From: Flavobacterium ammoniigenes
GTDB lineage: Bacteria; Bacteroidota; Bacteroidia; Flavobacteriales; Flavobacteriaceae
Direction: 5' to 3'
Assembly: GCF_020886055.1 (NCBI RefSeq)
Contig: NZ_AP025184.1
Span: 1,984,001 to 2,048,000 of the forward strand
Length of the DNA: 64,000 nt
Shown: in pieces, positions 51,627 through 60,341 of the stretch
Layout of the letters: each line of letters opens with the position of its first letter
Position numbering within the stretch: position 1 is the first letter of the stretch
The notes under the pieces: model-generated
Seen by the model: only the letters and a program-made list of their open reading frames with translations
The model's database searches: none
What the model was told of the DNA's origin: nothing
Translations under genes and position numbers: made by a program

Positions 51627-51663
51627 AAAAAAGCGAAAAAAAATAATTTTTTTTCGCTTTTTT
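51627..51663 (+). terminator. Intrinsic terminator after clpB
   Basis: The long stem begins AAAAAAGCGAAAAAAAA and pairs with a T-rich arm ending TCGCTTTTTT, with a very short loop. It insulates clpB from the trp promoter 27 bases downstream. Confidence 0.88.
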
Positions 51664-51689
51664 ATATTGGGTTAATGGAATAACCTTTA

Positions 51690-51697
51690 TATATTTG
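51690..51697 (+). promoter_or_regulatory. -7 box of the trp operon
   Basis: TATATTTG matches TAnnTTTG. ATTG at 51666-51669 is a weak -33 with a 20-nt spacer. The start of transcription near 51704 gives a 12-nt leader before the trp leader peptide. Confidence 0.7.
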
Positions 51698-51715
51698 TCA
51701 ACACATAAAAAGATT

Positions 51716-51772
51716 ATGATAACGAATACAAACAATACTTGGTGGTGGAACAATTTACGTCAGTCGTCGTGA
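51716..51772 (+). CDS. trpL: trp operon leader peptide
   Basis: An 18-codon reading frame, MITNTNNTWWWNNLRQSS, starts 19 bases after the trp -7 box and stops at a TGA (51770-51772). Three consecutive TGG codons at 51740-51748 would stall a ribosome when charged tRNA-Trp is scarce. Position before a terminator and upstream of trpE makes it an attenuator leader, analogous to TrpL of enterobacteria though not similar in sequence. It has no function beyond being translated. Confidence 0.9.
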   Translation: MITNTNNTWWWNNLRQSS

Positions 51773-51833
51773 ACAAAGCTCCTATAGTATAACTATCAAT
51801 ATAAAAGGCTTGTCATGACGACAAGCCTTTTTT
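51763..51833 (+). promoter_or_regulatory. trp attenuator (antiterminator/terminator switch)
   Basis: GTCGTCGTGA (51763-51772), which includes the leader stop codon, can pair over 10 bp (one G-U) with TCATGACGAC (51813-51822). The second segment is the core of the terminator hairpin at 51803-51833. A ribosome stalled at the Trp codons leaves 51763-51772 free to form the antiterminator. A ribosome that reaches the stop covers it, allowing the terminator to form. I did not find a convincing 1:2 pausing hairpin. Confidence 0.85.
51803..51833 (+). terminator. Attenuator terminator hairpin of the trp operon
   Basis: The 12-bp stem AAAAGGCTTGTC / GACAAGCCTTTT has a 5-nt loop (ATGAC) and is followed by a T run, 36 bases before the trpE start. 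Confidence 0.92.
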
Positions 51834-51868
51834 CATATCTTTTTTATGCTTTTGATAACAATATAAAA

Positions 51869-53278
51869 ATGAATAGTTTGAAATCATTTATTTTAAATAC
51901 CCATTACAAACAAATCCTAGCCGACACGATTACGCCGGTGAGTGTTTATTTGAAAATTCGCGATAAATTCCCGAATAGCTTACTATTAGAAAGTAGTGAC
52001 TACCACGGAAACGATAATAGTTTTTCGTACATCTGTTGCAATCCGATTGCTTCCATTAAAATAGAAAACGAAACTATTTTTAAAAGCTATCCTGACGGAA
52101 GTACAGAAAAAATCGCTATCGATGCTACAACTGATATTCCAGAGGTAATTCAGCAATTCTCAGGACAATTTGAATCGGAAAAGAATGATTTCAAATTCAT
52201 TAACAATGGCTTATTTGGTTACATTTCGTATGATGCCGTTCGCTATTTTGAAAAAGTAAGTATCGCCAAAAAAGAAAATAGCAATACCATTCCTGATGTG
52301 TATTATGCGGTTTACCAAAACATCATTGCCATCAATCATTTCAAAAATGAAGCCTATATTTTCTGCCATAGTTTGGATGGGAAAAATAACATTTCAGAAA
52401 TCGAACAATTATTGCAATCCAGAAATATAGCTTCCTATTCTTTCACCAAAGACGGTGAAGGTTTTTCTAATTTAACCGACGAAGAGTTCAAGCACAATGT
52501 GGCTTTGACCAAAAAACATTGCTACCGTGGCGATGTGTTCCAATTGGTTTTATCACGACGTTTCACCCAAGGATTTAAAGGAGACGAATTCAACGTATAC
52601 CGTGCGTTGCGCAGCATTAACCCATCGCCTTATCTATTCTTCTTTGATTATGGTGATTTCAAAATATTCGGTTCTTCACCCGAAGCTCAAATTATTGTAA
52701 AAGACCGTAAAGCCGAAATTCACCCCATCGCAGGAACCTTCAAAAGAACAGGCGATGATGAAAAAGATGCGGTATTGGCCAAACAATTATCTGAAGATAA
52801 AAAAGAAAATAGCGAACATGTGATGTTGGTGGATTTGGCTCGAAATGATTTAAGCCGCAACGGTCACGATGTGCAGGTTGAAAAATATAGAGAAGTACAA
52901 TTCTTTTCGCATGTAATTCATTTAGTATCCAAAGTAACGGGACATTTGCACGACAAAGCCTCTACGATGCAAGTAGTAGCCGATACTTTTCCAGCAGGAA
53001 CCTTAAGTGGTGCACCCAAACATCGTGCTATGCAATTGATTGAAGACTATGAAAAAACCAATCGTAACTTTTATGGAGGTGCCATCGGATTTATGGATTT
53101 CAAAGGCAATTTCAATCATGCGATTATGATTCGTACTTTCTTGAGTAAAAACCACCAATTACATTGTCAAGCCGGTGCTGGAATCGTAGCCGATTCGGAT
53201 GAAGAAAGCGAAATGCAAGAAGTGTACAACAAATTACGAGCCTTGAATACGGCTTTGGATTTGGCAGAAACAATTTAA
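51869..53278 (+). CDS. trpE: Anthranilate synthase component I
   Basis: A 469-residue chorismate-using enzyme that, with TrpG, makes anthranilate. The ATG at 51869 is preferred. The longer in-frame ATG at 51815 lies inside the terminator hairpin and would encode an unlikely 18-residue extension. The N-terminal LLESS motif, the tryptophan-binding site for feedback inhibition, is present. Catalytic motifs SPEAQIIV, HPIAGTFKR, LSEDKKENSEHVMLVDLARND and FPAGTLSGAPKHRAM are all intact. It is the first gene of a seven-gene operon with gaps of 1-10 bases, and is controlled by the upstream attenuator. Confidence 0.96.
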   Translation: MNSLKSFILNTHYKQILADTITPVSVYLKIRDKFPNSLLLESSDYHGNDNSFSYICCNPIASIKIENETIFKSYPDGSTEKIAIDATTDIPEVIQQFSGQFESEKNDFKFINNGLFGYISYDAVRYFEKVSIAKKENSNTIPDVYYAVYQNIIAINHFKNEAYIFCHSLDGKNNISEIEQLLQSRNIASYSFTKDGEGFSNLTDEEFKHNVALTKKHCYRGDVFQLVLSRRFTQGFKGDEFNVYRALRSINPSPYLFFFDYGDFKIFGSSPEAQIIVKDRKAEIHPIAGTFKRTGDDEKDAVLAKQLSEDKKENSEHVMLVDLARNDLSRNGHDVQVEKYREVQFFSHVIHLVSKVTGHLHDKASTMQVVADTFPAGTLSGAPKHRAMQLIEDYEKTNRNFYGGAIGFMDFKGNFNHAIMIRTFLSKNHQLHCQAGAGIVADSDEESEMQEVYNKLRALNTALDLAETI

Positions 53279-58338: not shown

Positions 58339-58375
58339 TTAAACAACTGTTTAATTAAACGGTTGTTTAATTTTG
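58339..58375 (+). promoter_or_regulatory. TetR-type operator overlapping the efflux operon promoter
   Basis: AAACAACTGTTTAA (58341-58354) faces TTAAACGGTTGTTT (58355-58368), an uninterrupted palindrome with one mismatch that extends by two matching bases on each side to 58339-58370. The -7 box TAATTTTG (58368-58375) overlaps its right edge. A repressor bound here would block the promoter of the adjacent TetR-efflux operon. Confidence 0.8.
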
Positions 58376-58396
58376 TTTTCGATAAATAAAACTGCA

Positions 58397-59026
58397 TTGA
58401 AAAGTAATTTCACTGACAAACAGATCCATATTTTAGAAGCCGCAGAAAACTTATTTGCCGATAAGGGTTTTGAAGGCACTTCCATTCGGGATATTTCAAA
58501 AGTAGCGAAGATCAATATTGCCATGATTTCGTATTATTTTGGTTCGAAAGAACGTTTATTGGAATCTTTGCTTTTTTACAGAACTTCAGATCTAAAAAAT
58601 CAATTGGATCATTTAATTGTAGAAGAATTAGCACCTATTGACAAAATCAATAAACTGATTGCCTTATACATCAATCGAATTAATAAAAACAAAGGTATTT
58701 ATCGCATTATCCATTTTGAATTCAATTCGGAAAAAAGAGCCAAGAGTTTAGCTGCATTTGCAGAGTTAAAAAAAGGCAATCTTAAAACACTGGAAACCAT
58801 CATTGCAGAAGGACAGAAAAAAGGAGTATTTAGAAAAGACATCATTGTTCCCCTTCTCACCCCAACAATTTTAGGAACCTTCTTTCATTTTCAAATGAAC
58901 AAGCCCTTTTTTGAAGAAGTGCTTCAGTTAAAAACGAAAGAATCTTTTGAAAACTATATTACAAACGAATTAACAAATCACATTCAACAAACCATAAAAG
59001 CATTACTGATACATGAAGAAAATTAA
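58397..59026 (+). CDS. TetR family transcriptional regulator of the efflux operon
   Basis: A 209-residue regulator with an N-terminal helix-turn-helix (about 5-50: AAENLFADKGFEGTSIRDISKVAKINIAMISYYF) and a C-terminal ligand/dimerisation domain. The reading frame opens with a TTG at 58373, but that lies inside the -7 box. The TTG at 58397 (giving MKSNFTDKQ) is the first start downstream of the expected transcription start. It overlaps the tolC-like gene by 14 bases. The operator upstream implies autorepression relieved by a toxic compound pumped by the downstream proteins. Confidence 0.85.
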   Translation: MKSNFTDKQIHILEAAENLFADKGFEGTSIRDISKVAKINIAMISYYFGSKERLLESLLFYRTSDLKNQLDHLIVEELAPIDKINKLIALYINRINKNKGIYRIIHFEFNSEKRAKSLAAFAELKKGNLKTLETIIAEGQKKGVFRKDIIVPLLTPTILGTFFHFQMNKPFFEEVLQLKTKESFENYITNELTNHIQQTIKALLIHEEN

Positions 59027-60341
59027 TCGATTCTTGCTCGTTGGACTATCCATTTTTGGGATAAACACCATAGCTGCTCAAGGAAAAAGAAGTCTGACAC
59101 TAGAAGAGTCAGTTCATTTGGCTTGGGACAATAGTAACGAAGTAGGATTGGCAAATGCCAAGGTGCTCTCAAAGAAATACGAATTACAGTCGGCTAAGAA
59201 CAATCAGTATCCTGAATTTAAAATTTCGGGACAATACCAACGATTGGCTAATGCGGCTATCGATTTAAAGTCAACACAAAATTCCAATTCTGGTACTTTG
59301 CCAATCGTTGACCAATTAATCATTGGACAAGCCAATGCAACTTTACCCATTTTTGCAGGATTTAAAGTGCAAAATAACATTCAGTTACACGACAATTTAT
59401 ACCAAGCTGAGGCAGCCAATACTTTGCATACTAAAGAAGAGGTGGCGATTCAAGTGATAAATTTGTATGCTCGTTTATTCAAAGCGCAAAAAACTATAGC
59501 ACTTTTGAAAGAAAACCAAAAAAGAGCAGAACAACGTGCCTATGATTTTGGCGAATTAGAAAAAAATGAAATCATTGCTCGAAATGATTTATTGAAAGCA
59601 CAATTGCAAGTCTCTAAAATCAAGTTATCGATTGTAGAAGAAATGAATCATGAAAATACCATCAACTTTCAATTAATCACTTTATTAAAACTCCCTGCGG
59701 GTACCCAATTAGAAATTCGGGAAAGTGATTTTGCTAATTTCAAAATGGACAATATCCCAACCAATGAAGAACCTGCATTAGCTAACCGAAAAGATTTGCA
59801 AGCCATTCAATTACAAGGAAAAGCAAGCAAAGTGAATGTCCAATTAGCCAAAGGGAATTATTACCCAACTATCAATTTTATTGGTGGTTATGTCATGTTA
59901 GATCTTAAAAATGTGGTAACGGTACAAAATGCAATGAACTTTGGTATGGGAATATCTTATGATTTGAGTTCTATTTTTAAAAATGATGCTGCAGTAAAAT
60001 TAGCTGAAAGTAAACTGACTGAAATTAAAAATTCAGAAGCTATGCTAACGGATTATATCAAAATTGAAGTTCAAAAAGCAATAGAGGATTACCATTTGGC
60101 TATCCAACAAAATGAAGTTTATGCGGAATCCGTTGCGCAATCATCTGAAAATTACCGAATCATCAAAGACAAATACGATAACGGCTTAGCCAATACCAAT
60201 GATTTATTAGAAGCCGACGTAGAACAACTAAGCGCCAATATTAATAAAACATTAGCCAAAGCCAATATCATTCAAAAATACTACGCCTTACTGAATGCAA
60301 CAGGGCAATTAACTGCTACTTTCACTATTTCAAAACTATAA
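59013..60341 (+). CDS. TolC-family outer-membrane efflux protein
   Basis: A 442-residue outer-membrane channel with signal peptide (1-23, ending IAAQ) and two TolC repeats rich in long helices. The pattern LANRKDLQAIQLQ and the C-terminal NDLLEADVEQLSANI are typical. It forms a tripartite pump with the HlyD-like and MFS proteins encoded next. The start overlaps the TetR gene by 14 bases, showing tight coupling. Confidence 0.92.
   Translation: MKKINRFLLVGLSIFGINTIAAQGKRSLTLEESVHLAWDNSNEVGLANAKVLSKKYELQSAKNNQYPEFKISGQYQRLANAAIDLKSTQNSNSGTLPIVDQLIIGQANATLPIFAGFKVQNNIQLHDNLYQAEAANTLHTKEEVAIQVINLYARLFKAQKTIALLKENQKRAEQRAYDFGELEKNEIIARNDLLKAQLQVSKIKLSIVEEMNHENTINFQLITLLKLPAGTQLEIRESDFANFKMDNIPTNEEPALANRKDLQAIQLQGKASKVNVQLAKGNYYPTINFIGGYVMLDLKNVVTVQNAMNFGMGISYDLSSIFKNDAAVKLAESKLTEIKNSEAMLTDYIKIEVQKAIEDYHLAIQQNEVYAESVAQSSENYRIIKDKYDNGLANTNDLLEADVEQLSANINKTLAKANIIQKYYALLNATGQLTATFTISKL

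Follow-up and report, generated by a model that had tools for sequence, protein, structure and literature searches.

What controls the tryptophan operon in the window, which is the whole stretch of 64,000 nucleotides of the Flavobacterium ammoniigenes chromosome analysed here, and is the controlling element new? Between clpB and trpE lie a short reading frame with three consecutive Trp codons and an intrinsic terminator. From sequence comparison and folding models, the element very probably attenuates transcription of the tryptophan operon by a ribosome-mediated mechanism, and it belongs to the published Bacteroid-trp family.

An initial annotation, made from the letters of the DNA, had listed a -7 box, an 18-codon frame with three consecutive TGG codons, a stop codon inside a segment able to pair over 10 bp with a downstream partner, a perfect terminator overlapping that partner, and a position just before trpE, and all of these were recovered (Table 1). 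The gene trpE opens a complete operon, followed by trpG, D, C, F, B and A, with names assigned by reading the translations; its start was placed at 51869, and the mechanical ORF begins further upstream, at 51815. The motif TAnnTTTG, which we take to be the Bacteroidota promoter consensus, occurs ahead of the leader in 79 of the 80 TrpE loci and in 63 of the 76 leaders matched by Rfam (see below for both sets), at a shuffled background of 7%. Inspection by eye showed no Shine-Dalgarno sequence 5' of the leader ATG; Bacteroidota genes mostly lack such sites. The hairpin 3' of clpB is probably the clpB terminator, and a similar A/T-rich hairpin is present in three related loci (L056-L058). On the far side of the operon, the translations from 58373-60341 read as a regulator of TetR type and an outer-membrane efflux protein resembling TolC.

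Table 1. Features of the trpE leader region in the window, with the related lysine-type loci
Feature	Positions	Strand	Basis
A/T-rich hairpin with U-run, 3' of clpB	51627..51663	+	sequence
Candidate Bacteroidota-type promoter: TTG 51667-51669 and -7 box TATATTTG (TAnnTTTG) 51690-51697	51667..51697	+	sequence
Leader peptide ORF, MITNTNNTWWWNNLRQSS then stop: ATG 51716, TGG TGG TGG 51740-51748, TGA 51770-51772; 18 sense codons plus stop	51716..51772	+	sequence and comparison
First (1:2) hairpin, containing Trp codons and segment 2; consensus pairs: base 51735-51739/51786-51790, middle 51744-51745/51781-51782, top 51754-51759/51768-51773	51735..51790	+	Rfam structure line, folds, pair counts
Segment 2, antiterminator 5' side, leader stop codon inside; pairs 51763-51772/51813-51822 (10 bp, one G.U), 51774-51776/51810-51812, 51778-51780/51807-51809	51763..51780	+	inverted repeats, folds, pair counts
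Segment 3, antiterminator 3' side (terminator 5' arm, loop, start of 3' arm)	51807..51822	+	fold, pair counts
Intrinsic terminator: stem 51803-51814/51820-51831 (12 bp, 100% complementary by inverted-repeat search) and U-rich tail	51803..51837	+	sequence, inverted repeats, covariation
trpE, first gene of the trpEGDCFBA operon (ends 58228)	51869..53278	+	translations read, relatives
Lys-type loci in other Flavobacterium genomes: L180 (= L238, L244), L190 (= L239), L212, L219, L220, L221 (= L240), L241-L243, L245-L247			

The initial annotation had left open whether such a leader was already described in this clade, and it is. When 4227 Rfam families were scanned at their cut-offs, the leader was matched by RF01692 ("Bacteroid-trp") alone, at 51696-51814, with 66 bits against a cut-off of 49, over model positions 1-131 of 131, and this was the single RF01692 match in the whole genome. 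The enterobacterial Trp leader and T-box families gave no match at cut-off, and the window as a whole gave just RF01692 and one tRNA. With a score over the cut-off, trp genes downstream and an ORF with Trp codons, the element can be assigned with good support to a published family and is hence not new: in the accessible parts of the two sources, Bacteroid-trp is tabulated in 2010 as cis-regulatory (PMC2864571), and the element is placed ahead of the trp operon in Flavobacterium psychrophilum and likened to E. coli trp attenuation (PMC6414381). The Rfam model ends on the terminator 5' arm and its structure line shows the first hairpin alone, so the attenuation switch is absent from it. The consensus hairpin as mapped onto the window contains several non-standard pairs; the minimum-energy fold keeps its top, which the pair counts given below support, and uses another base (51739-51746/51792-51799).

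We propose that the leader works as follows. When charged tRNA-Trp is plentiful, the ribosome would reach the stop codon and cover segment 2, and the terminator (51803-51831) would form. When charged tRNA-Trp is scarce, the ribosome would stall on the three Trp codons and mask the first hairpin's 5' half; segment 2, now released, would then pair with the emerging terminator 5' arm, the loop and the first bases of the 3' arm, and transcription would run on into trpE. With no translation at all, the first hairpin could hold segment 2, and termination would result. Translation of the leader, stalling on the Trp codons and survival of the antiterminator until polymerase has passed are what we infer; the leader ORF, the three competing helices and their conservation, as well as the predicted effect of ribosome position, are established below from sequence and comparison.

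Footprint-masked folding, which had been suggested as a check, was carried out by keeping unpaired all bases from 18 nt 5' to 13 nt 3' of the A-site codon, an approximate general value for the ribosome footprint. With the RNA ending at 51828, a ribosome on any Trp codon gave the antiterminator a probability of 0.91-0.95, and a ribosome on the stop codon gave the terminator 0.73 and the antiterminator 0.00. The same RNA free of ribosomes gave the first hairpin 0.90 and the terminator 0.68. The complete untranslated leader forms the top of the first hairpin at 0.96; the initial annotation had seen no obvious pausing hairpin and had considered a simplified two-state form, which is not called for, since this hairpin exists. 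The ribosome-free first hairpin reaches 0.90-0.96 at RNA ends 51828-51838 and 0.00 at 51822-51825, where the ribosome-free fold is the antiterminator (0.95; its 10-bp part likewise 0.95 at end 51822); to protect against read-through, the first hairpin must therefore form before the RNA reaches 51822 and persist. In the full-length window leader, the terminator probability was 0.92, 0.37 and 0.53 with the first, second and third Trp codon in the A site, respectively. The region 51704-51838 folds with z = -3.08 (2/200 shuffles equally good), and the complementarity between the stretch after the Trp codons and the terminator was equalled by 4/2000 shuffles in the window. The same shuffle test, tried on 12 of the 76 Rfam-matched leaders, gave 4/2000 in two and 60-291/2000 in ten; outside the window most leaders thus show a far weaker match.

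All 76 Rfam-matched leaders were taken into the folding test. In 71, moving the ribosome from the stop codon to Trp raised upstream pairing of the half-made terminator by more than 0.1; the mean shift over the 76 was 0.51, against 0.05 for shuffled linkers, 19% of which also pass 0.1, and in 63 leaders the shift exceeded that of all 20 of their own shuffles. Five leaders (L037, L145, L146, L148, L151) had no shift. At mid-terminator the Trp-stalled state exceeded the ribosome-free state by more than 0.1 in 62/76. In full-length transcripts, a ribosome on Trp cost the terminator more than 0.1 in just 6/76. Since the equilibrium fold at full length is usually the terminator, the choice must be kinetic, and the switch needs an antiterminator that forms first and lasts.

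Comparison of the regions upstream of trpE, also suggested at the outset, yielded Trp runs in every set examined, together with a covarying terminator. The first set was selected by TrpE and not by RNA. The closest TrpE in named records was 99% identical and came from a Flavobacterium assembly, and among the best 80 of 475 TrpE relatives a short ORF with a Trp run (WWW) precedes trpE in 80/80. In 77 of these 80 loci the leader terminator was the best hairpin by script; in L056-L058 the script preferred the A/T-rich hairpin further upstream, and the leader terminator is also present, exact in L056 and L057 and, by eye, with one A-U pair lost in L058. The second set consisted of 76 Rfam-matched places from two surveys (26/60 and 51/392 genomes with a match), all with a terminator and all with adjacent Trp codons (WWW in 73, WW in 3), followed by trpE (66), trpB (5) or trpD (5), the last two named by comparison with the window's own genes. 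Loci with this leader type before trpD or trpB are L149, L150 and L153-L155, and L024, L028, L033, L136 and L144; variants of the Trp run include FFWW (L144), YWWW (L028) and YWW (L033).

Genomes without an Rfam match were sampled as well, and the 18 examined comprised 6 with a strong TrpE, 10 with a match at 27-31% identity and 2 with none. In all six with a strong TrpE (L160-L165, Flavobacteriaceae), the leader encodes WW or WWW and is followed by a terminator that differs in sequence, and three of these leaders are weak RF01692 hits (E 0.6-0.8). Their segment 2 and terminator differ in sequence and are still complementary over 8-9 bp in 4/6, two of which are near-identical to each other; L161 has no ribosome-position shift, and the best helix in L163 and L165 is unconvincing. 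The ten leaderless genomes of the genus with only a 27-31% identical TrpE-like protein (G001, G003, G016, G022, G026, G027, G028, G033, G035, G414) probably carry PabB, which suggests that these members have lost tryptophan synthesis.

Some relatives carry more than one unit. Tandem leader-plus-terminator units precede trpE in G037 (L025/L027, G037:C26:75-332) and G052 (L026 and L159, G052:C169:4762-5045), two of the three genomes of that family examined; the third (L158) has the second type only, in the stretch read. In the second leader of L027 (L027:215-360) the stop codon lies 3 nt 5' of the terminator arm, and the modelled terminator probability with the ribosome on the stop codon is 0.02, so that a ribosome there would block the terminator. 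In G020 (L339: WWW and WWW) and G452 (L340: WW and WWW), both of them genomes that carry the Lys type described below, trpE is preceded by two successive leader ORFs, each with a Trp run.

Conservation of the helices was assessed in an alignment (A1) of 42 of the 73 distinct leaders (76 minus 3 identical), which omits 18 further genus members, near-duplicates by eye, and the divergent L024-L027, L145, L146, L148-L150 and L153-L156. The terminator is paired in 99.6% of cells, with changes on both sides at 6/11 pairs and a covariation score reached by 0/500 shuffles. The antiterminator is paired in 86.2% of cells (17-68% in slid versions) and has 11 double-change cells where shuffles give 3.9; on two of five measures it does not clearly exceed shuffles (38/500, 169/500), and its 3 double-change pairs are equalled by one slid version. 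RNAalifold on the 42-row alignment found the terminator and nothing else, without recovering the first hairpin, which was therefore counted on a structure specified by hand and not on the RNAalifold consensus. Counted in this way, the first hairpin is paired in 81.0% of cells (top stem 87.3%), with 35 double-change cells against 14.4 in shuffles; its 6 double-change pairs compare with 6 and 8 in the versions slid by -3 and +3, and in pair types it does not exceed shuffles (356/500). The pair 51754:51773 is UA in 20, CG in 17, AU in 2 and unpaired in 3 of the 42 leaders. The base of the hairpin, at 72.3%, is poorly judged because, in leaders from other genera, the columns 3' of the stop codon drift. 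Taken with the conserved Trp runs, the both-side changes in all three helices lend support to the ribosome-mediated trp attenuation put forward in the initial annotation.

Homologous leaders without Trp codons had been named at the outset as a finding that would speak against attenuation. Leaders on this scaffold that lack the Trp run do exist, and the codons in its place fit the mechanism. The locus L180, a weak RF01692 hit at 36.4 bits (below cut-off) in a genome without a TrpE match at 1e-30, carries the same scaffold with the leader MYQIKTNKVKKQYLRPTS upstream of an aspartokinase. When 199 genus genomes were searched with a scaffold pattern, 127 places in 126 genomes were obtained, and the reversed control pattern gave zero places in the same genomes. 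Fifty of the 127 places were read, giving 44 WWW and 6 Lys-type leaders, a proportion that is not a frequency because the 20 fetched places had been chosen for unusual-looking spacers. The next protein downstream is of the same kind in 6/6 Lys-type places; two of these proteins, scanned against NCBIfam, passed the cut-off for aspartate kinase (TIGR00657), and their best score, under its cut-off, was to lysine-sensitive aspartokinase 3. A protein search found the Lys-leader aspartokinase in 9/120 genus genomes (E at most 1e-150); the genome of the window had no match at E at most 1e-50. Of the genes found, 9/9 have a Lys-type leader and terminator upstream. Scaffold and protein searches together gave 12 Flavobacterium genomes with the Lys type.

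The pattern K-x-K-K-x-x-L-R-x-x-S-stop is present in 12/12 Lys leaders. Seven residues separate the last Lys from the stop, as they do the last Trp in the window leader, and the Lys codons vary at third positions among genomes; L246 retains one Trp codon (MNTWIIKKGKKQYLRRTS). In an alignment (A2) that joins 12 Trp-type leaders with 7 of the 12 of Lys type, the top stem, segment 2 and terminator are the same as in the window leader, whereas the Lys run replaces the Trp run and the downstream gene differs. Terminator and top stem are paired in 99.1% of A2 cells; double-change cells number 16, where shuffles give 3.7, and pair types are not above shuffles (494/500). Moving the modelled ribosome from Lys to the stop codon shifted pairing in 6/6 leaders folded at one transcript end and in 10/12 with the end set by terminator length; L241 and L247 had no shift.

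Among these relatives, codons and downstream gene change together while the scaffold stays. Judged from sequence, the Lys codons and their aspartokinase context fit attenuation rather than refute it, and Bacteroid-trp is likely to be a modular attenuator whose sensor has changed naturally, such that in part of Flavobacterium Lys codons (mostly KK-x-KK) would place an additional aspartokinase under the control of lysine. Trp is probably the older state, because all 90 of the matches read, out of 150 listed for a family-wide scaffold model (R1), are Trp-type: 85 have an ATG-started Trp-run ORF and 5 (L280, L281, L292, L315, L335), by eye, a GTG or TTG start with the same WWW. R1 matched in 322/395 family genomes, which is not a leader count because R1 also matches the reverse strand of the terminator (51803-51887 minus, 42 bits). 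The idea that the Lys type arises only where trpE has been lost was not supported: 5/12 genomes have a strong TrpE and 7/12 a weak one or none, and the five have WWW leaders of other sequence before trpE, joined in two of them (G020, G452) by a second W-run leader further upstream. Titles and abstract openings in the openly accessible literature searched contain no description of a Lys leader peptide of this kind.

Could the terminator act constitutively, with a Trp-rich small ORF that is incidental? The full-length equilibrium, dominated by the terminator in nearly all states, would agree with this; retention of the Trp run in every trp-linked relative examined and its change to Lys where the downstream gene becomes an aspartokinase argue against it, and we regard it as highly improbable. 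The same low probability is given to a leader that senses a ligand or protein directly (riboswitch, T-box or TRAP-like) and contains the small ORF by chance. The first hairpin might in principle serve as an aptamer, but no Rfam family other than RF01692 matches here, and conservation is centred on the Trp codons, the stop region and the terminator.

Slighter still is the chance that Rho-dependent or re-initiation control operates instead of intrinsic termination. Re-initiation from leader genes is described generally in the accessible part of PMC4833913, which gives a peak distance of 11-14 bp for Bacteroidetes; here, however, 96 nt separate the leader stop from the trpE start, an interval that holds a perfect intrinsic terminator. 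Ribosome-mediated attenuation is the reading that we retain for the window.

All three helices are now located for an Rfam family whose model ends short of the terminator, and the window leader gives targets for a first test in its phylum. The lysine version of the same switch is the wider and less expected result. Should the Lys-type leaders prove responsive to lysine, nature would have run an experiment in which the sensed amino acid was swapped through a few codons and the RNA switch was kept; this would be a simple route by which a regulator moves between pathways.

The enterobacterial trp attenuator (trpL) consists of a leader with Trp codons and three competing helices, and both features are common to the element described here. 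Unlike trpL, most Flavobacterium leaders have the stop codon inside segment 2, and in most of them the best segment 2 helix extends to the terminator loop and the first bases of the 3' arm. The tandem attenuators of mgtCBR (PMC3641672, in its accessible part) resemble some trp leaders here in having two leader ORFs in series; their signals differ, and the window has a single unit. The published Bacteroid-trp element (RF01692; PMC2864571, as far as accessible) is alike in its site before Bacteroidota trp genes, its Trp-codon leader and the full-model match, and the antiterminator and complete terminator are what the present analysis adds to the model. The element of F. psychrophilum (PMC6414381) shares genus and operon with that of the window, and the structure analysis, as far as the accessible text of that source goes, is found only here.
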